In this document: positions 4,663 through 32,150 of the stretch, in pieces
How the letters are laid out: every line of letters starts with the position of its first letter
Position numbering within the stretch: position 1 is the stretch's first letter
DNA from: a bacterium
GTDB taxonomy: Bacteria > Krumholzibacteriota > Krumholzibacteriia > LZORAL124-64-63
Assembly (NCBI GenBank): GCA_014730255.1
Contig: WJIQ01000150.1
Coordinates: 1 to 32,941 of the forward strand
Direction: 5' to 3'
Length of the DNA: 32,941 nucleotides
Program-made: the position numbers and the translations under genes
The notes under the pieces: generated by a model
The model's input: the letters and a program-made list of their open reading frames with translations, nothing else
The model's database searches: none
Told to the model about the DNA's origin: nothing

Positions 4663-7302
4663 TCAGCGCACGCGGGCGATCTTGCGGGTCATGCGCCAGT
4701 CGCCGACCCGTAGCTCGATCAGATACGTCCCGGCCGGAAGCAGGCGACCACGATCGTCGCGGCCATCCCAGTGCAGCCGACTCAGCCCCGCCGGGAACCT
4801 GGCCTGCGTCAACCGCGCGATCCGACGACCGGCGAGGTCATAGACCGAGACCGTCGCCTCGGCCTCGTGAACGAGCCGGAAGGCGATCTGCGCGTTCGCG
4901 CCGCCGGGGTTCGGTCCCGGGGCGAGCAGGAATCCGGGGCCGGCCGTCGTGTCGACCGTCCGCGGCGTCGACGTCACGTCGGCGCCGTACACGACGACGT
5001 GGTCGGGGCCCGGCATGACCACGGCGGCCGCCTCGCGGCCATCGTCGAGGGCGAAGAACGACGGTGCGGCTGGTAGCTCGCTGGCGGTGCCGCCGACGTG
5101 GAAGTGCGCCACGCCGTCTCCGTCGGCCGCGGTCAACGCGTAGGGGCGCCCGCTCGCGTCGAAGTCGGCCTGGATGAGGTTGCCGAAGTCGCCATAGTTC
5201 TCCACGCCCACGAGCGCGCCGGTGCGCGGGTCGCGCAGCTGCAGGACGTTGGTGTAGTAGTGGGCGACGCCCATCAGGTCGTTGAACGGATCGTAGGCCA
5301 GGCGGATCGGGCCGTCGCTGGTCGGTACGGTCGTCTCGACGGTCGAGGCCGCCCCGGCCAGTCGCAGGATCGAGATCGAGTCGCCGAACCAGTTGGTCAC
5401 CGTGGCGTACTCGCCGGTGTCGTCGAAGGCGATCTGCAGCGGGAAGTCGCCGACCGTGAGCGATGCGACGATGGTGTTCGTGGCCGTGTCGATCACCTTG
5501 ATCTGGTCGTCGAACGACGCGGCGACCAGGCAGTGCGCGCCGTCGGGACTGACGGCCACTGCGCTGGAGATGCCGTACGCGGCGTAGGAGACGCCGATGA
5601 TGCCGCAGGGCAGCTCGGCCACCTCGCTGCTGTCCGCCCCGTCCAGCTCGATCACGGAGACGGTGTTGCCCTGGATGTTGCCGACATAGGCATGGCTGCC
5701 GTCCGGCGCGATCGCGACCACGCCGGGCCGCTGGCCGGTCGGCACCACGGCGGCCACCTCGCCGAGCTCCAGGTCGATCACCGAGACCGAGCCGGCGTCC
5801 ATGCCGCAGGCCACCGCCCAGCGCGAGTCCGGGGTGATGGCGACGTTCTGCGTGCGGGCGCCCGTGGGCAGGATCGCCGACACCTGACCGGTCGCGAGGT
5901 CGACCAGGGAGACGTTGCCCGAGAGCACGTTGGCGACCACGGCGATGCTCCCGTCCGGGGTGATGGCCACGCGCCGCGGCGCGTCGCCCTCGGGGGGCAG
6001 GCCGCTGACGCAGTCGCCCAGCCACTGCGGGCTCGCGGGCGTGGCGTAGTCGTAGAAATTCAGGGCCTCGCTGCGCAGTGGGTCGACCGCCACGGCCGTC
6101 GCGCCGACCGGCGAGACGGCGCCCACGCTGGTGCTGATGCCCTGCCACTGGCCGGTCAGCTGCTCGCGGTCGAAATCGAGCACCGAGAAGCGGTACTGCA
6201 TGCCGATGGCGTACGCGTGGTCGGGCGAGACGCCGATGGCGAACGGCGTGTAGGTGCCGGTCAGGACGCGGAAGCTGCCGGCGGTGAAGTTCACGAAGGC
6301 GCTGCTGTTGTTGTTCACGCCCAGGAAAGCCTTGGTGCCGTCCTGGTTCACGGCCACCTGATGGGTCGACAGGCCGTATCCGGTCACCGCGACCGAGCCG
6401 TCGAGCGCCGGACCGGCGAGGTCGATCCGGTAGGCCGTCGCGGGGTCGGTGGCGCTCAGGGCGACCAGCGTCGAGCCGTCGCCCGAGAGTCCGACCGTCG
6501 TGCAGTCGGGTATGCCGCCGACGGTGTGGGCGAGCGCCCCGGTGCCGGCGTCGAAGAAGCGGACGGCCTGGCCACGGTCGCCGGCCACGACGTGCTGGCC
6601 GTCGGGGGTGACCTCGAAGCCGGTGAAGCGCACGCCGTTGCGCCCGTTCTCCGAGCCCCAGGAGAAGCTCAGCAGCGAGATGGGAAAGCCCGTGATCTGG
6701 CCGACCGGCGCGAGGGTCTCCAGGTCGATGATCTCACAGACGTCGGGGATGTCGCAGGCCACGTAGGCGCGCGTCTGGTCGGGGTTCAGGCGTACGACCC
6801 AGGGCTGCTCGGCGGTCGGGATCACGGCGGCGACGGAGAAGTCGGCCAGGTCGATGATCCAGGCCTCGTCGCTGAACGCGCAGGCTACGACGGCGTACTG
6901 GTCGCCGACCGCGACGCCCGCCGGATAGCTGCCGACGTCGACGTTGGCCACGACGGTGCGCGTCGTGACGTCGAAGACGGTCACGTTGTCGGTCGCCCGG
7001 TTGGCCATCAGGACGGTCTGACCGTCGGGCGTGAAGACGGGCCAGGCGAGGTAATCGCCCTCCGGGGCGACGCCCGGATCGAGGTCGTTGCCCGCGCCTC
7101 GAGGCGGGCGGACCATCGCCTCGGTCAGATGGTCACGCGTCGGCGCGACGGTCGGTCGAGGCGCTCCGTCCGGGTCGACGAGGTCGGCGACCCGCGCGTC
7201 GAGATCGGCCGTCGCCGGGGTGGCGACGATCGCAGCGAGCAGGATGAGCACGGGAGCGGCGTGGCGGCGGATTCCGGCGAGAAGGCGGTACCGACGTTGC
7301 AT
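4663..7302 (-). CDS. Exported YncE/YVTN-type beta-propeller with FlgD-like C-terminal domain
   Basis: An 879-residue secreted protein. A signal peptide ([20 protein letters not shown]..., Ala-rich end at about 32) is followed by roughly 700 residues of repeated propeller blades with the YncE/YVTN pattern: [56 protein letters not shown]. The last 85 or so residues are a FlgD-like Ig/T9SS-type sorting domain ([42 protein letters not shown]). Such propellers are usually surface binding proteins; the ligand is unknown. The frame is open further upstream, but ATG 7302 is chosen because GGAGG lies 8 bases ahead and the signal peptide starts there. The sorting-domain start reads PNPGGAN rather than PNPFNP. 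It is transcribed divergently from the POT transporter. Confidence 0.88.
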
Positions 7303-7341
7303 GGGGAGGACCTCCGGCAGGGGTGTCGAGCGTCGGACGCG

Positions 7342-7350
7342 ATCATAGCA
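7342..7350 (-). promoter_or_regulatory. Extended -10 promoter of the beta-propeller gene
   Basis: On the minus strand the sequence reads TGC-TATGAT, an extended -10 (TGn plus 5 of 6 matches to TATAAT) about 40 bp before ATG 7302. There is no good -35, as usual for extended -10 promoters. It is the only AT-rich patch in the 160-bp divergent region. Confidence 0.5.
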
Positions 7351-7462
7351 CAGACGATCGGCGGATTGGAGCCGCCGCGCGGGTGCGGCCCCGCCGGACT
7401 CCCAGTATGTTGGTCGGATTCGTGCGTCGTCACCCCATCGGCCAGCCAGGAGTACCCATCCC

Positions 7463-8833
<1,371 letters not shown>

Positions 8834-8865: not shown

Positions 8866-10263
8866 TCAGCGGACCAGCATCAGGGACCGCGTTCCGGCCC
8901 GCGACCCGGCCCGGACGCGGGCGAGGTAGGATCCGGACGGCACCGCGTGCCCACGGTCGTCGCGGCCGTCCCAGGAGACGACGGCGACCCCGGCCGGGCG
9001 TGGTCCGCGCGTCAGCCGACGCACCAGCCGTCCGCGCGCGTCGTGGATCCGGATCTCCAGCGGTCCGGGGGTCGTCACGCTCACGCGCAGCGTGGTGCGC
9101 GGATTGAACGGGTTGGGGGCCGCCGAGACGTCCAGCGCGGCGTCCAGCGACGGGACGGCCGTGCCGGTCTCGCGCTCGTGCTCCACCCGCAGGATGTTGA
9201 ACTCCGCCGGGGCGAGCATCGCGAAGCCGACGAGGATGACCGTGCGTCCGGCGTCGAGATCGTCGGCCGTGTGCGTGCTGGCGTCGCACCTGACGAAGAA
9301 CGCCTCGTCGGGCTGCGCCCCGACGAACCAGCCCGCGAGCCACAGCCCGTACAGGAAGTCGGCGACCGCGACCTCGAGCTGCTGCCAGAGCGCCGGATCA
9401 TTGGGCTCGAGGACCGCCCACTCCGTCCCGTCGTGGATCGACTCCTCCAGGAACATCGCGGTCCGCCGCACCGTCACGTACCGCCACTCCGGGTCGCTGC
9501 TCAGGGTCCGAGCCCCCCAGACCCGGATGCCCTGCGGTCCGAAGTCGCGGATCGGGTTGATGCCCAGCCCGTTGAGTTGGTCCGCCTCGTCCGTGGTCAG
9601 CGGATCGGTGACCCCGGTCGCGGTCGCGACCACGCCGATCGGTGAGGCGTCCGCGCGGCTGGCGGCATACAGGCCGGCCACGAAGCCACTCGGGGGCAGC
9701 TCGCGCTCCTGGCCATCGGGCGCGGCCACGATCCACGGGTAGTACAGCGCGGCGTGACCTCCGGTGGCCACCAGCGCAGCGCGCTGGGCCTGCACGGCGA
9801 CGACGTCGTCGCGCGCGGCCGGGTCGAGGATGCCGATCCGGTCGCCGTGCGCCTCGCAGTGTGCGATCACCGCGGTCTGCACGGCGAGGTCGGTCACGCC
9901 GGGGATGGCGACGATCGCCACCGCGTCGACCGTGCCGAGGGCGCCGAGGCCCTCGCTGCCGGTCAGTTCGAGGGGATCGGCGCCCGGCGCCCGCACGACC
10001 CGGAGCGACTGGCCGCCGCCGAGGAAGAAGGCCGCCACCGCCGGTCCGAGATACGGGTGCTCGAGAGATCCGGTGAGGCCAAAGATGCTCACGAACTCCT
10101 CGTAGCTGGTCACCGGGACCGGTTGCCCGACCGGTCCCTGGGCGGCCATCCCGACGAAGCCGGCGACGTCGGTGGACACGCCGTCGAAGGCCGCGGCGGA
10201 GGTCGCGAGCAGGATGACCGCGCAGGGAGCGAGGGCGACCAGGACGGAGCGACGAGGCAGCAC
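8866..10263 (-). CDS. Exported contractile tail-sheath protein fused to a FlgD-like C-terminal domain
   Basis: A 465-residue protein with three parts. Residues 1-25 are a signal peptide (MLPRRSVLVALAPCAVILLA then TSAAA). Residues about 27-363 are a contractile phage/eCIS tail-sheath core. It starts at FDGVSTDVAGFVGMAAQGPV, continues with TSYEEFVSIFG and AAFFLGGGQSLRVVRA, then ILDPAA, YYPWIVAAPDG, PPSGFVAGLYA, GINPIRDFGPQGIRVWGART, SSDPEWRYVTVRR, FLEESIHDGTEWAVLEPNDP, EAFFVRCDASTHT and APAEFNILRV. Residues about 378-465 are a FlgD-like sorting domain ([35 protein letters not shown]). The GTG start has GGGAGG 5 bases ahead. Normal sheaths are cytoplasmic, lack a signal peptide and have an extra N-terminal strand (PGVYVEE type) before GVST; here that arm is absent. 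No other tail gene is nearby. The fold assignment is firm, while an extracellular role is inference. Confidence 0.9.
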   Translation of the reverse strand: MLPRRSVLVALAPCAVILLATSAAAFDGVSTDVAGFVGMAAQGPVGQPVPVTSYEEFVSIFGLTGSLEHPYLGPAVAAFFLGGGQSLRVVRAPGADPLELTGSEGLGALGTVDAVAIVAIPGVTDLAVQTAVIAHCEAHGDRIGILDPAARDDVVAVQAQRAALVATGGHAALYYPWIVAAPDGQERELPPSGFVAGLYAASRADASPIGVVATATGVTDPLTTDEADQLNGLGINPIRDFGPQGIRVWGARTLSSDPEWRYVTVRRTAMFLEESIHDGTEWAVLEPNDPALWQQLEVAVADFLYGLWLAGWFVGAQPDEAFFVRCDASTHTADDLDAGRTVILVGFAMLAPAEFNILRVEHERETGTAVPSLDAALDVSAAPNPFNPRTTLRVSVTTPGPLEIRIHDARGRLVRRLTRGPRPAGVAVVSWDGRDDRGHAVPSGSYLARVRAGSRAGTRSLMLVR

Positions 10264-10299
10264 GAGGACCTCCCGGGACGTTCACGGAACTCGTTGAAT

Positions 10300-22295: not shown

Positions 22296-25200
22296 TCACT
22301 TCACGAGGGCCATCTTGTCGATGGTCACCTCCCCGTTCGCGCGGGTCTCGTGGAAGTAGATGCCCGAGGCGGCCTGCCGACCGGTGTCGGAGCGGCCGTC
22401 CCAGACGACCTGGTGCTCGCCGGCGGCCATCTCGCCGTCGACCAGGGTGCGCACCAGCTCGCCACGCACGTTGAAGATCTTCAGGCTGACCTCGCCCGCC
22501 CGGGGCAGGATCAGCTCGATGGTGGTCGCGGGGTTGAACGGGTTCGGGTAGCAGCTGACCTGCAGACGGGCGGCCGGCGGGTCGGCGCCGATGATGGGCG
22601 ACGTGCCGTCGTGGCCGAAGATGTCGAGGATGTCGCGCAGGATCAGGGTCCGGGCCGGGATGCCCGGGGCCACGCCGCCAGGCGGGGTCCAGCCGGGCGC
22701 GTTGTAGATGTAGATGAAGTCGTAGGGCAGGTAGACGATGTCCGCGGTCTCCGGGCCGTACTGGTTGTAGATGCCTGCCGCGTAGGTGTACTGCCCGGGA
22801 TTGCCGTTGGCGTCACAGAACTCGGCGATGCGCTCGGAGGTGCCGACCGGCTCCACCGCGTCGAAGGCATTGATGACGTTGCAGCCGCCGTAGGCGATCC
22901 ACTCGTCGACCGTGGTCAGGATGCTGTTGCCGCTGATCGGCCTGGCCAGGGGCGCGGTCTGGTTGTCGATCAGGGGACCGACGTTGTTCTGGGTGAAGTT
23001 GACCGACAGGTAGGTGTTGACGAACGCCGCCCCCGTGGCACCGGCATCGAGCATGCCGCGGACGAACTCGTCGCCGGTGAACAGCGCGTTCTTGTCGCCC
23101 TGGGCGAACCAGTTGCTCACCACGGTGATGTCGTTGGACGGGTCGTTGTTGAAGTCGCCGTTGGCCATCAGGTTCACGCTCAGGTCGCCGGCGGTGTAGA
23201 GCATGGTCTGGTAACCGGCGAGCAGCGCGCTGGTCGCGCGGCCGCCGAGGCCGTTGCCGACCCCGGAGCTCGGACCGTTGGTGGCGTACATGTCGTAGTC
23301 GATGCCGAGCTCGTAGCCCAGCTGGTTCAGGGCGAAGAGCCACTCGTTGTCGCCGCCCCGGCCCACGAAGTCGTTCCAGAAGAGGATCCTCGGCTGGTCG
23401 CCGGGCGCGTCGGAGAAGAGCGTGGGCAGGGCGCGAACGACGTAGTCCACGGGATACTGCAGGTCGTAGGTGAAGCTCGCGTAGCCCGCGGTGTCGGCCG
23501 GCAGCAGCGAGACGCCGATGTCGCCGGCGACGTTGTCCTCGCCCCAGATGTACCACTTCAGCACGTCGCCCGGGAAGAAGAAGCCCTCATCGGGCAGCGA
23601 GACGTTCCAGCGGTTCTCCACCAGGGTCGGCGGGTCGGTCTGCTGGAAGGTCGAGTCGGCCTCGACGTAGCCCTCGATGAGGGTCCAGCCGTCCTCGAAG
23701 AAGTCCGGGACCTGGTTGAGGTCCTCGAGCTCGCCGACGTTGGTCCGGTACGGGTCGAAGAGCGGATTGGCGCGCATCCGGACGTAGAGGCGCGGTGTGG
23801 AGTTCAGCACCGCGCCGCCGCGGACCGGGCTCACGTCGAACCACATCGAGTCGCCGGGGTAGTTCACGAGATCGTCGGCCTGGGCGATGTTCTGGGCCGC
23901 ATCGAGGGGAACCGAGTTGTTCCCGAGGTCGACGAGGTCGAGGTCGCCGCGGGCGGGGAAGTTGTCCTGCAGCCAGTCGATCGCGCGACCGGAGATGCCC
24001 GGGCCGGCGAACGGATAGGCCGTCAGGCGGATGTTGTCGAAGTAGGGAGCCGGCGTGCCGTCGGTGCCCACCCAGCCCCAGACGTACCCGTACTCGATGC
24101 ACCGCATGCCGACCTGCACGTGCGTGCGGCCGTTGGTGAGCAGATCGGTGATGACGAAGCCGGTCGAGAGGTAGTCCGGGCCGCCGTAGTAGACGAAGTT
24201 ACGGTCCTCCCAGGAGGCGCCCTCGAGGTCGGCGGGATCGCCCGTGTTCACCGAGCGGATGTGCCACTGGTAGAAGATGCCCGGCCAGGTGCCGAACGCG
24301 CCCAGTTCCTCGTGGCGGAAGACGTTGAAGTTGATCGCGCAGCCGTCGGTGCCGGCCGGCCATTCGATCGCGGGGCTGATGATCAGGTTGTTGATGTAGA
24401 AGTCCGGGCCGGCGGGGCCGCCCTGGTTGTTGACGATGTAGCCGCCGGGGCCGTAGCGCCAGGTCTGACCCGCCTGGAACTCCTCCACGAAGCCGTCGGG
24501 GCCGACCTCGGGCGTGTCCGGGAACGCCACCTGGGGGCCGAAGTTGCTGTTGCAGGGGTCCTCGTCCTGCAGGTTGACGTAGATCTCGGCGTAGTCGCCG
24601 ACGCCCGGCAGGAGGTCCGGTACCCAGTCGTCGGCCACCTGGTCCTCGAAGTCCTCGAAGAACGTCTCGCCGGCGACGGTCACGGTGACGTCGTCGACCT
24701 GGCAGGCGCCGTCGGTCTCCCAGAGGTCGTCCTCGTCCGACCAGGCGCCGTCCGAGGCGAAGCGGAAGCGCAGCTGGATCTCGTCGGCGCCGCTGCCGAC
24801 GTAGTCGCCGGGATTGTAGGTGAAGGTGTGGCTCTCGTTGAACGTGCGGTCCCCGTCCATCTGGACGAGCACGTTCCAGATGCCGTCCTGATTCCACTCC
24901 ATGTAGGTGTAGTCGTAGCCCGGCTCGGTGTCGTTCTGGATCGTGGCGCTCCAGTTCACCGTGTTCGAGACGGCGTTGTCGGGCACCTGATAGCGGAACA
25001 GCACGACCTGGTTCCAGTCGTTGCCGTAGCCGAGGTCACCGTCGGCGAACTCGGTCCCGCACCAGTACGAGTAGTCACCGTTGACGGCGTTGAAGTCGCT
25101 GACCTGCCAGTAGCTCTCGTCCGAGAACGTGGCGTCCTCGCTGGTCCAGCCGTTCCAGCTGGGGATGCCGAACTGGTCCTCGAACGTGCCGTTCTCGACC

Positions 25201-25406
25201 GGGCCGATGCCCTGGTCGTCGATCTGATCGGGATTCTGCGGATTGCCGATGAGGTAGATGGTGTCGCCGGACGTCTTGGCCAGGGTGATGGATCGGCCCG
25301 TGTGGACGCCGTGGTGGCCACGGACCTTCTGCGGTGGGTCGTCCGCCACGGCGATCGCGACGAGCACGATCAGGGCGAGCGTGACGAACAAGGGCGAGCG
25401 GATCAT
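22296..25406 (-). CDS. Large exported protein of unknown function with FlgD-like C-terminal domain
   Basis: A 1036-residue secreted protein. A signal peptide (MIRSPLFVTLALIVLVAIAV then A) is followed by beta-rich sequence heavy in Trp, Tyr, Asp and Asn. Near 70-240 there is a likely jelly-roll or immune-inhibitor-A-like sandwich (FEDQFGIPSWNGWTSEDATF, DDLWETDGACQVDDVTVTV). A second similar module follows at about 310-450 (HIRSVNTGDPADLEGASW, YFDNIRLTAYPF). A later region (ILFWNDFVGRGGDNEWLFAL, LGYELGIDYDMYATNGPSSG) looks like an alpha/beta domain. The last 85 or so residues are a sorting domain (CYPNPFNPATTIELILP, VWDGRSDTGRQAASGIYF). I see no protease active site. ATG 25406 is chosen because the signal peptide starts there. 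The function is unknown. Confidence 0.85.
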   Translation of the reverse strand: MIRSPLFVTLALIVLVAIAVADDPPQKVRGHHGVHTGRSITLAKTSGDTIYLIGNPQNPDQIDDQGIGPVENGTFEDQFGIPSWNGWTSEDATFSDESYWQVSDFNAVNGDYSYWCGTEFADGDLGYGNDWNQVVLFRYQVPDNAVSNTVNWSATIQNDTEPGYDYTYMEWNQDGIWNVLVQMDGDRTFNESHTFTYNPGDYVGSGADEIQLRFRFASDGAWSDEDDLWETDGACQVDDVTVTVAGETFFEDFEDQVADDWVPDLLPGVGDYAEIYVNLQDEDPCNSNFGPQVAFPDTPEVGPDGFVEEFQAGQTWRYGPGGYIVNNQGGPAGPDFYINNLIISPAIEWPAGTDGCAINFNVFRHEELGAFGTWPGIFYQWHIRSVNTGDPADLEGASWEDRNFVYYGGPDYLSTGFVITDLLTNGRTHVQVGMRCIEYGYVWGWVGTDGTPAPYFDNIRLTAYPFAGPGISGRAIDWLQDNFPARGDLDLVDLGNNSVPLDAAQNIAQADDLVNYPGDSMWFDVSPVRGGAVLNSTPRLYVRMRANPLFDPYRTNVGELEDLNQVPDFFEDGWTLIEGYVEADSTFQQTDPPTLVENRWNVSLPDEGFFFPGDVLKWYIWGEDNVAGDIGVSLLPADTAGYASFTYDLQYPVDYVVRALPTLFSDAPGDQPRILFWNDFVGRGGDNEWLFALNQLGYELGIDYDMYATNGPSSGVGNGLGGRATSALLAGYQTMLYTAGDLSVNLMANGDFNNDPSNDITVVSNWFAQGDKNALFTGDEFVRGMLDAGATGAAFVNTYLSVNFTQNNVGPLIDNQTAPLARPISGNSILTTVDEWIAYGGCNVINAFDAVEPVGTSERIAEFCDANGNPGQYTYAAGIYNQYGPETADIVYLPYDFIYIYNAPGWTPPGGVAPGIPARTLILRDILDIFGHDGTSPIIGADPPAARLQVSCYPNPFNPATTIELILPRAGEVSLKIFNVRGELVRTLVDGEMAAGEHQVVWDGRSDTGRQAASGIYFHETRANGEVTIDKMALVK

Positions 25407-25713
25407 GTGTGGTACCCCCAATCTCCCTCGAGACTCTCGGGCCTCGCATCGGGACCAGCGATCGGACGTTCACGCCGGGTCCGGCGCGCGATCGCTCTCG
25501 CCGGACCGTTCTCCCTGGAGGGCGGCGGCCAGGCTCGCGAGGCGACGCAGGCGACGCGCCGCTGCGACCCCGGCGGCGATGCTGGGGCGGTCGTGGGTCC
25601 TCCTTCGGTGGAGTATGACAGGCTCAAGATAGCGACCGCGAAAACGCCATGTCAATACGCGGAAACCTCTGTGCCGTTGCAGTTTATGGCGAAAGGGCGG
25701 CCCGCTACCGGGG
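25407..25713. other. Long upstream region of the large exported protein
   Basis: This 307-bp stretch has no convincing gene. It holds the promoter at 25626-25655 and then an implied 5' untranslated leader of about 210 nt, which is GC-rich and could fold, before ATG 25406. I see no known riboswitch in it. The cyclase gene ends at its right border. Confidence 0.5.
25626..25655 (-). promoter_or_regulatory. Sigma70-type promoter of the large exported protein gene
   Basis: On the minus strand a perfect -35 TTGACA (25655-25650) is followed after 18 bp by TATCTT (25631-25626). Transcription would start near 25619, leaving a long leader before ATG 25406. Confidence 0.55.
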
Positions 25714-29134: not shown

Positions 29135-32026
29135 TCACTTGATCAGCACCATCCGGCGCACCTGGACCTGGTCGTCGGCGACCAGGCGATAGAAATACGC
29201 GCCGGAGGCCATGCGGCGGCCGCCGTCGTCGCGGCCGTGCCAGATCACCTGGTGCTGGCCGGCGGGCAGGTCCTGATCGACCAGGGTGCGTACCCGGCGC
29301 CCGTCGACGGTGTAGACGGCCAGGTCGACCGCGCCCGCGCCCGGCAGCGCGAACTGGATCGTGGTGGCCGGGTTGAACGGGTTGGGATGGTTCTGGTGCA
29401 GGACCAGCGCCGCGGGCGCTGCGTCGGGCGTGTCCTCGACCGGGGTGACGTCAGCCATGAAGGTGGCCACCTCGAAGTCGTCGATTGCCGCCTCGACGAG
29501 GCCGCCGGTGTTTTCGTCGCAGGCCAGGAAGCGCAGCTGCACCTGATCGGTCAGCGCGAACGCGCCGCCGGCGAGGCTGCCGAGATCCACCGAGACGCGC
29601 TGCCAGGAGTTGGCGTTCTCGGGCACGCGTTCGAACTCGATCCAGCTGACCCCGTCGTTGGTGATCTCGACCACGAAATCGTCGTCGATGCTGAAGCCGC
29701 CCTCGCCGTACCAGCGCCAGTAGCTGACGAAGGCCCGCTCGGCCAGCGACAGGTCGAACACGGGGGTGACGAGCGTCGTGCAGCCGTCGTCCACGTCCTG
29801 GTCGCCGGCCTCGCCGCCGGGGGCGGTGTTGCCGGTCACGTAGCAGGCGACGCCCGGATCCTCGGTATGGTCGTCCTCGGGCTGGACGTTCAGGCCCTGA
29901 TAGTCCGTGCCGACCGGGTCGGCCCGCACCCAGAGGCCCGTGGTCGCCTGGTCGCCGGGCACGCCCAGCTGCCAGGCCGGATCGCCCGGATCCTCGGCCG
30001 CCGTCGCGTAGACCGACTCGCCGACGAGCAGGGTGTACTCGGTCGAGCTGTTGCTCAGGCCCGCCCCGTCGCGGGCGGTGATGTCGAAGGTGATCGTCGT
30101 GTTGGCGGGCTGGCCGGCGATCTCGGCGCTGTAGGTGTCACCCTCGACGTGGACCATGGAGATGGCGTCCGGGGTGCCGCCGTTGATGCGCACGGTCATG
30201 ACCGCGCTGGTGACGGTGCTCGCGTCGTAGATGTCGGCCGTGATCACGTAGGGCCCCACCGTGTCGGTGGTGAAGACCTGGTCGGTGACCTCGGTGATGG
30301 CCGGACCGGCATCGTCGACCAGCGAGAAGTCCTGCATGGTCAGGCCGTCCTCCTCGATGGTGACCGTCGCCTCGACGGGCGCGAAGCCGTCGAGCGTGCA
30401 GGTGACCACGTGCTCGCCCGGGGCGACCATGCCGCTGTAGCTGCCGTCGCTGCCGGAGACCAGGAACTGCGCCGAGGCGTTGAACTCGATGCGCGCGCCG
30501 GCGAGTGGCGCCTCGTCGTAGGAGGCGTTGGTGACCGTGCCTTCGAGCGTCCCGAAGCCGTTCATGGCCGCCATCACCGCCTCGTAGGCGTTCAGGAAGC
30601 CCCAGCCGTAGGTGTTGTCCTCGCCGGCCGAGCCGAGGTCCACCGCGGTGTCCATCAGCACCTGCTTGATGACGTCGACCTCGAGGTCGGGGTTGGCCGA
30701 GCGCATCAGCGCGACGACGCCGGCCACGTGGGGACCGGCCATGGAGGTGCCGCTCTTGTAGCCGTAGTTGCCATTGGGGGTCGCGCTGTAGATGTCGCTT
30801 CCGGGCGCGGCGATCTCGGGCTTGGTCAGGTACGCCGGGTCGAAGACGCCGGTGCACGTGCTCGGGCCGCGGCTCGAGAAGCCACTGATCTGATACGGGG
30901 CGTAGTACTGGGTCGAGCCCACGGAGAAGCTGTCGTAGAAATTGCTGGCGCGATCGGCGGGCGAGCGCAGGCTGCCCGAGCCCGGTCCCTCGTTGCCGGC
31001 CGACCAGGTCACGACGACGCCGGCGTCCTCGCAGTTGTCGATCACCGCCCACCAGCGGTCGTCGCAGTCGTTGTAGCCGGAGAAGTTCTCGTTCACGCCC
31101 CAGGAGTTCTGCACGACGTCCGGCACGTCGTCGACCGTGGCGGGGTTGCCGTCGGGGTCGGCGAACCACTGGAAGGCCTCGATGATGTCGTTGTCGAAGC
31201 CGGGGTTGGCGCCCTGGTCGATGGCGTTGCAGGCGATCCATTGCGCGCCCGGGGCGACGCCGATGGTGTCGTCCGGGGCCAGGCCGCACATGGTGCCCAC
31301 GGTGTGGGTCCCGTGGCTGTTGTAGTCGGTCGGGAAGCTGGCGCCGCTGCCGATCACGTCGAGCCAGCACTCGCTGGCGGGCTCGGAGATGCCACGCCAG
31401 CGCGTGGCCAGCGACGGGTGGTTGCCGTCGACGCCGGTGTCCAGCGAGCCGATGAGCGCACCGGTGCCGTCGATGCCCAGCTGGTTCCAGACCTCCGGGG
31501 CGCGCACGGCCTCGATGCCGGGCGCGAGGCCGATGCCACGGCTGTCGAGCTCCGTGCCGTCCCTGGTCGCGTCGGCGCTCATGACCGGCTCGATGAGCGA
31601 GACCGTGAAGTTGGGCTCGATCCAGGCGATGTCCGACCGGTCGACGAGATCGCGGATCACGTCCTCGGTGGCCTGGACGACCACGATGTTGGCGATCCAG
31701 TAGCTGGTGAAGCCGGCCACGCTGCCGCGTCCCTGCGCGACGCTCAGGTCGTCGAGCAGCGGCGGCTGGGTGCGGTCGGCGGTCTCCCTCAGCGCGCGCA
31801 CGACCTCGGTGTTGCGCTGCTGGCGGGTGGCCTGGCGGGTAGAGAGGTCGGCGGATATGGCGTCGACGGGCGCCTGCTCGCGCAGGTGGACGATCACGCT
31901 GATCATCTCGCCGTCGGCGGCGCGGTTGAGCTGGTCCTGAACGGCGGGGTCGAGGACGTCGGCCGACGCGGGCAGGGCGCCGGCGAGCACGACCGTGGCG
32001 AGGGCGATGACGAGAGCCTTGCGCAC
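29135..32026 (-). CDS. Exported subtilisin-like serine protease (S8) with FlgD-like C-terminal domain
   Basis: A 963-residue secreted subtilase. The signal peptide (VRKALVIALATVVLAGALPA then SA) is read from GTG 32026, which has AAGGAG at 6-8 bases; the longer open frame to 32122 is Pro/Arg-rich and unlikely. An I9-like propeptide follows (MISVIVHLREQAPVDAISAD). The S8 triad is Asp near 196 (IGSLDTGVDGNHP), His near 238 (NSHGTHTVGTMCG) and Ser near 428 (SGTSMAGPHVAGVV); the oxyanion Asn is in SAGNEGP. Then come a carboxypeptidase-regulatory-like module (LEGTVTNASYDEAPLAGARI), beta-sandwich and jelly-roll modules, and the sorting domain (HPNPFNPATTIQFALP, WHGRDDGGRRMASGAYFYRL). It degrades extracellular protein, feeding the dipeptidase and POT transporter. 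Confidence 0.94.
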   Translation of the reverse strand: MRKALVIALATVVLAGALPASADVLDPAVQDQLNRAADGEMISVIVHLREQAPVDAISADLSTRQATRQQRNTEVVRALRETADRTQPPLLDDLSVAQGRGSVAGFTSYWIANIVVVQATEDVIRDLVDRSDIAWIEPNFTVSLIEPVMSADATRDGTELDSRGIGLAPGIEAVRAPEVWNQLGIDGTGALIGSLDTGVDGNHPSLATRWRGISEPASECWLDVIGSGASFPTDYNSHGTHTVGTMCGLAPDDTIGVAPGAQWIACNAIDQGANPGFDNDIIEAFQWFADPDGNPATVDDVPDVVQNSWGVNENFSGYNDCDDRWWAVIDNCEDAGVVVTWSAGNEGPGSGSLRSPADRASNFYDSFSVGSTQYYAPYQISGFSSRGPSTCTGVFDPAYLTKPEIAAPGSDIYSATPNGNYGYKSGTSMAGPHVAGVVALMRSANPDLEVDVIKQVLMDTAVDLGSAGEDNTYGWGFLNAYEAVMAAMNGFGTLEGTVTNASYDEAPLAGARIEFNASAQFLVSGSDGSYSGMVAPGEHVVTCTLDGFAPVEATVTIEEDGLTMQDFSLVDDAGPAITEVTDQVFTTDTVGPYVITADIYDASTVTSAVMTVRINGGTPDAISMVHVEGDTYSAEIAGQPANTTITFDITARDGAGLSNSSTEYTLLVGESVYATAAEDPGDPAWQLGVPGDQATTGLWVRADPVGTDYQGLNVQPEDDHTEDPGVACYVTGNTAPGGEAGDQDVDDGCTTLVTPVFDLSLAERAFVSYWRWYGEGGFSIDDDFVVEITNDGVSWIEFERVPENANSWQRVSVDLGSLAGGAFALTDQVQLRFLACDENTGGLVEAAIDDFEVATFMADVTPVEDTPDAAPAALVLHQNHPNPFNPATTIQFALPGAGAVDLAVYTVDGRRVRTLVDQDLPAGQHQVIWHGRDDGGRRMASGAYFYRLVADDQVQVRRMVLIK

Positions 32027-32150
32027 GGGGATCTCCTTCCAGAGCGGGACGGAACGGCAGCGAACGGACGGCTCCCGGCGCGACGCGGGGTGCGGGCGCG
32101 GTGGATGGGCGCGGGGAACCATCGGGAATCACGCGAAGTTTTGAGGTTCG

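Follow-up and report, generated by a model that had tools for sequence, protein, structure and literature searches.

The sheath genes of PVC, Afp and the pyocins cluster with tube, baseplate and cap genes. In the sheath structure of phage E217, a four-stranded sheet is built from elements of adjacent subunits, namely the N-terminal arm (residues 1-23), the C-terminal beta-turn and the C-terminal arm; in the extended state these elements alone hold subunits together, and bodies come into lateral contact in the contracted sheath (PMC10329688). Arms likewise mediate subunit movement in phage Mu (PMC11915804). The CIS particle of Streptomyces is cytoplasmic (PMC10066040). In a large survey of CIS, candidates were retained only if they had tube, baseplate and sheath-initiator genes (PMC12210884), so that exported sheaths of the kind described here would have been missed. 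The sequence-only reading of the DNA studied here knew of no described system with an exported sheath; in agreement with this, our search of the literature (subscription content being outside its scope) gave nothing relevant and found no secreted or T9SS-tagged sheath.

Here, we analyzed a window of 32,941 nucleotides (the whole stretch of DNA under study), in which a gene for a putative exported sheath-body protein of 465 aa was located (8866..10263, minus strand). It starts with GTG, and a GGGAGG motif lies 5 bases ahead of this codon in the Shine-Dalgarno region (10264..10278, minus strand). The G+C content of its three codon positions (0.75/0.53/0.92) shows the same coding pattern as that of neighbouring genes, and none of the tested overlapping ORFs in other frames had a coding-type distribution. 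The plan of a signal peptide plus a C-terminal domain is shared with T9SS type A cargo (carrying FlgD_ig or Por_Secre_tail), and SprA and PorV are encoded in the same genome. In contrast to such cargo, the passenger is a sheath body, and we found no description of a passenger of this kind.

Sheath body and missing N-terminal arm

The window protein begins with a predicted signal peptide (residues 1-25, 10189..10263, minus strand; VLPRRSVLVALAPCAVILLATSAAA), which occupies the slot of the canonical N-terminal arm. The maximum 12-residue hydropathy of this N terminus was 2.9, whereas the median for 146 ordinary sheaths was 1.08; this difference bears out the earlier assignment of residues 1-25, and the Sec-type call is a prediction drawing on composition, start site and recurrence. 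It is followed, on the same strand, by the sheath body (residues 26-366, 9166..10188), with Phage_sheath_1 at residues 114-254 and Phage_sheath_1C at 255-361, a linker of low confidence in the model (residues 367-378, 9130..9165) and a FlgD-like Ig / T9SS type A-like C-terminal sorting domain (residues 379-465, 8869..9129) recognized by FlgD_ig and TIGR04183.

Both domains that mark the fold of contractile tail and CIS sheaths were detected by Pfam (Phage_sheath_1, 9e-15; Phage_sheath_1C, 1e-7), together with a weak match to Gp18_domIII_N (2e-4, below its cut-off). A phmmer search against PDB retrieved sheath proteins down to 2e-67. Structure prediction, which had been proposed as a check, also gave a sheath fold: the AlphaFold model based on 22 sequences had a mean pLDDT of 82, and its best Foldseek match was the S. 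coelicolor CIS sheath (E 2.8e-27). The latter (PDB 8bky, 8bl4, 9gts, 9gtp) was the best match in both sequence and fold, the body being aligned over almost its full length with about 38-40% identity; unlike it, the window protein has no N-terminal arm and carries a signal peptide and a sorting domain. PVC, Afp and pyocin sheaths have the same fold (Foldseek 1e-18 to 1e-13) but possess arms and lack export signals. For a second exported protein, from a planctomycete (L018, see below), the model likewise showed a body of high confidence and a signal peptide in helical form.

Conservation of the body was examined at 60 canonical columns, defined by a conservation of at least 90% across 75 CIS-type sheaths. 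Fifty-four of them were kept in at least four of the five full-length exported proteins, and only 2 of the 60 were lost in most of these proteins. The strand-accepting C-terminal beta-turn of contractile sheaths is also present: a beta-hairpin (about residues 341-362, minus strand) is retained, with strands at 341-348 and 355-362 in the model and an invariant PAEF motif. In addition, all five share G210, at a position that is mostly N in ordinary sheaths.

Related ordinary sheaths start with 'MPEYLAPGVYVEE...' or a close variant of it, and the ordinary sheaths that were inspected, those of the same phylum among them, had an N-terminal arm. The 146 ordinary-sheath ORFs with the arm motif are a set selected by that motif; inspected cellular loci that lacked it by eye were partial, divergent or unresolved ORFs (e.g. 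L113, L114, L116 and L142). The 'MPEYLAPGVYVEE' arm was absent in all six exported proteins (6/6), in which the signal peptide stands at this position and leads straight into the body. Thus, on the evidence of Pfam, PDB and the model, the sheath core is complete, as described earlier, with respect to the body but not to the N-terminal arm. Because the lattice-forming arm is absent in all six proteins, a normal contractile sheath is unlikely. The loss of the arm together with the conservation of the body suggests that the exported proteins use the folded sheath body without a contractile lattice. On the other hand, the hairpin has been retained without its N-terminal donor, and some strand exchange is therefore possible.

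Distribution and origin of the predicted exported form

Three relatives of the same phylum, belonging to three genera and two families, encode proteins with the layout of the window protein, from signal peptide through sheath body to FlgD_ig: L010 in genome G041 (same genus as the window), L012 in G052 (same family) and L011 in G009 (a different family). A further locus (L014, genome G049) encodes the signal peptide and the first residues and then reaches the contig end. With this truncated copy counted, the exported form is rare, occurring in 5 of 80 genomes of the phylum. Outside the phylum, the planctomycete MAG G080 (JACQVW010000755.1) contains L018, in which the signal peptide and body are followed by a dockerin-like C-terminal domain and which is flanked by planctomycete-type PSCyt2/PSD1 genes. 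It was the only exported sheath among the best-hit loci inspected in 392 Planctomycetota, G080 included, and none was observed among those inspected in 284 genomes of the phylum of G084 and 82 of that of G081. The exported form was not seen among the viral-contig matches listed either, which had an arm-like start or were partial or second sheath-like ORFs; where the body was complete, no long extension followed at the C terminus.

The phylogenetic tree placed the four full-length members of the window's phylum in one clade (SH-aLRT 99; 100/99 in the careful tree), which L018 adjoins. The careful tree favours two origins, but a single origin for all five proteins is statistically allowed (p-AU 0.27), and all of them share G210.

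C-terminal tags, predicted export route and gene context

The sequence-only reading had also proposed a FlgD-like/T9SS-type C-terminal domain, of the same type as in the neighbouring protease and propeller. Both points were borne out. FlgD_ig matched the C terminus with 3e-12 (Pfam), and the T9SS type A sorting domain TIGR04183 (NCBIfam) scored 24.2 bits, narrowly above its cut-off of 23, which was passed by the window protein alone among the four FlgD_ig-tagged exported proteins. FlgD_ig was also found on the S8 protease (29135-32122), the propeller (4663-7464) and a third window protein (22296-25421). The FlgD-like domain is very abundant in the window genome, since almost all of the 150 scored matches of a whole-protein search fell in this region; likewise, the dockerin-like tag of L018 had 150 scored matches of 685 candidates in its own genome. 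Since each tag is common in its own host genome, the body has been joined to a host-abundant C-terminal domain in two lineages.

Two T9SS components, SprA and PorV, were searched for. SprA was present in the window genome (9.7e-15) and in 39 of 43 relatives, and PorV in the window genome G000 (1.1e-11), G009, G041 and G052, whereas PorV was not found in the planctomycete genome of L018. We take the window's phylum to be a T9SS-bearing, FCB-like lineage. The tested sequence features of T9SS type A cargo are thus found for the window protein (a predicted Sec signal peptide, a type A C-terminal domain and translocon genes), and the distribution fits export by T9SS in this phylum and by another route in the planctomycete.

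The neighbours of the gene in the window encode a POT transporter and a sensor kinase, followed by PurK, threonine synthase, phosphoglycerate mutase, UvrD and others. No conserved operon partner was identified, as the neighbourhoods of the exported copies share only FlgD_ig domains. Tube (PF06841), baseplate J (PF04865) and second-sheath genes were not found in G000 (94% complete) or G009 (99% complete), while G041 and G052 additionally encode separate ordinary CIS genes. With its cellular neighbours, and with these results for G000 and G009, the gene is not co-encoded with tube and baseplate. The window protein therefore lacks two tested features of contractile sheaths, the arm and the machine genes.

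Several other loci were observed in these genomes. Ordinary CIS genes occur in the window's phylum (L015, L017 and L016), and ordinary CIS sheath and tube genes were found on short contigs of two hosts of exported sheaths (L103 in G052:C164 and L102 in G041:C17). A CIS tube gene (L181:8607-9170, G042:C2; PF06841 8e-41) is present in another member of the window's genus, G042, in which neither sheath nor baseplate J was found. Just upstream of the exported sheath gene of G041, an endolysin-like amidase with a peptidoglycan-binding domain (L098:3434-5743, G041:C822, minus strand) is accompanied by three small genes without PHROG match, possibly a phage remnant. In the window's family, a divergent phage-type sheath (L013:1492-3738, G044:C157, minus strand; 749 aa ORF) precedes smaller ORFs of the same orientation, and this region is a possible prophage. 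The sole tube-domain match in the planctomycete genome of L018 sits within an RHS/YD-repeat protein of at least 1739 aa (L180:3-5222, G080:C226, plus strand), whose C-terminal part is a CIS inner-tube domain (PF06841 1e-28; TIGR02241 1.4e-24; CIS5 family 1e-17). The C-terminal part of RHS proteins often carries a toxin.

Possible role of the exported sheath body

Sequences and models show the fold, layout, recurrence, loss of the arm, orphan context and presence of SprA and PorV, and it is likely that a sheath body has been exapted as an exported, non-contractile surface protein. The sequence-only reading had already suggested that a sheath fold was recruited as a secreted or surface-anchored protein; the recurrence of the layout, the different tag in the planctomycete and the presence of SprA and PorV support it, secretion itself being predicted from sequence. 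During evolution, the gene for a CIS sheath subunit may have been captured by itself; a Sec signal peptide would have taken the place of the N-terminal assembly arm, and the C terminus would have gained a sorting domain that is common in the host lineage. The protein would then be made alone, cross the inner membrane by Sec and fold in the periplasm as a soluble subunit, which the absence of the arm may help. In the window's phylum, the FlgD-like domain would pass it through the SprA/PorV type IX channel to the surface or the outside; all these steps build on the sequence and on established T9SS biology. Without the arm, a normal lattice of sheath subunits would not form, and no tube gene was found in G000 and G009, the cleanest of the host genomes. 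Most likely it would be a non-contractile monomer or small oligomer, presumably serving as a binding or structural module on the cell surface, built on the rigid sheath body. This final molecular role is the weakest step and a guess.

It is rather unlikely that the sheath subunit is instead an extracellular building block used outside an injection machine, as a new surface polymer or as a decoy against contractile weapons. If it were a secreted polymer, mature subunits would assemble at the cell surface or beyond it into a tube or lattice resembling a sheath, held by contacts between bodies or by a new donor strand; the highly conserved body, the retained C-terminal hairpin and the lateral body contacts of contracted sheaths (PMC10329688) could be cited in its favour. 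However, every exported copy (6/6) is missing the arm by which subunits are linked in solved sheaths, and the polymer considered possible in the sequence-only reading is therefore disfavoured; G000 and G009 also lack a tube template and baseplate J, and a bulky FlgD domain comes after the hairpin, so that we judge such assembly unlikely. A surface decoy or inhibitor would disrupt incoming contractile tails by occupying their sheath strands. Although an acceptor hairpin kept without its own donor arm and a predicted extracellular location are compatible with this, strands are already paired in assembled sheaths and no link to defence genes was seen among the window neighbours, making a decoy highly improbable.

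Very unlikely, too, is a cytoplasmic accessory of a CIS encoded elsewhere, whose hydrophobic N terminus would be a membrane anchor: CIS genes do exist in G041 and G052, but tube, baseplate J and a second sheath are missing in G000 and G009, and the FlgD-like tag is of a sorting type. The least probable explanation is a prophage or CIS remnant, or an assembly artefact, in which an ordinary sheath gene acquired a signal peptide and a FlgD domain through a chance junction. The sequence does come from a MAG, and the phylum does contain ordinary CIS genes. Nevertheless, the caveat of an assembly error in the sequence-only reading was checked and the same joins were found in several independent MAGs; because the layout recurs in independent genomes, an assembly error is ruled out, and it is mainly this recurrence that refutes the explanation. 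Furthermore, the ORFs are intact, body residues are conserved, neighbours are cellular, and 146 ordinary sheaths carry the arm motif. A prophage origin was also rejected, as the window neighbours are housekeeping or secreted-protein genes and the body is closer to CIS than to phage sheaths on the tree; among the matches listed, identity of phage sheaths to the window protein was at most 37%.

Exaptation as an exported surface protein would have several implications. Sheaths are otherwise known as parts of machines, and a conserved, exported, arm-less orphan body would cleanly exemplify their reuse as a free surface protein. The N-terminal arm is in effect deleted by nature in such a body, which allows the role of the arm to be tested. 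Finally, caution is needed in genome annotation, since the label 'tail sheath' need not mean a phage or a CIS.
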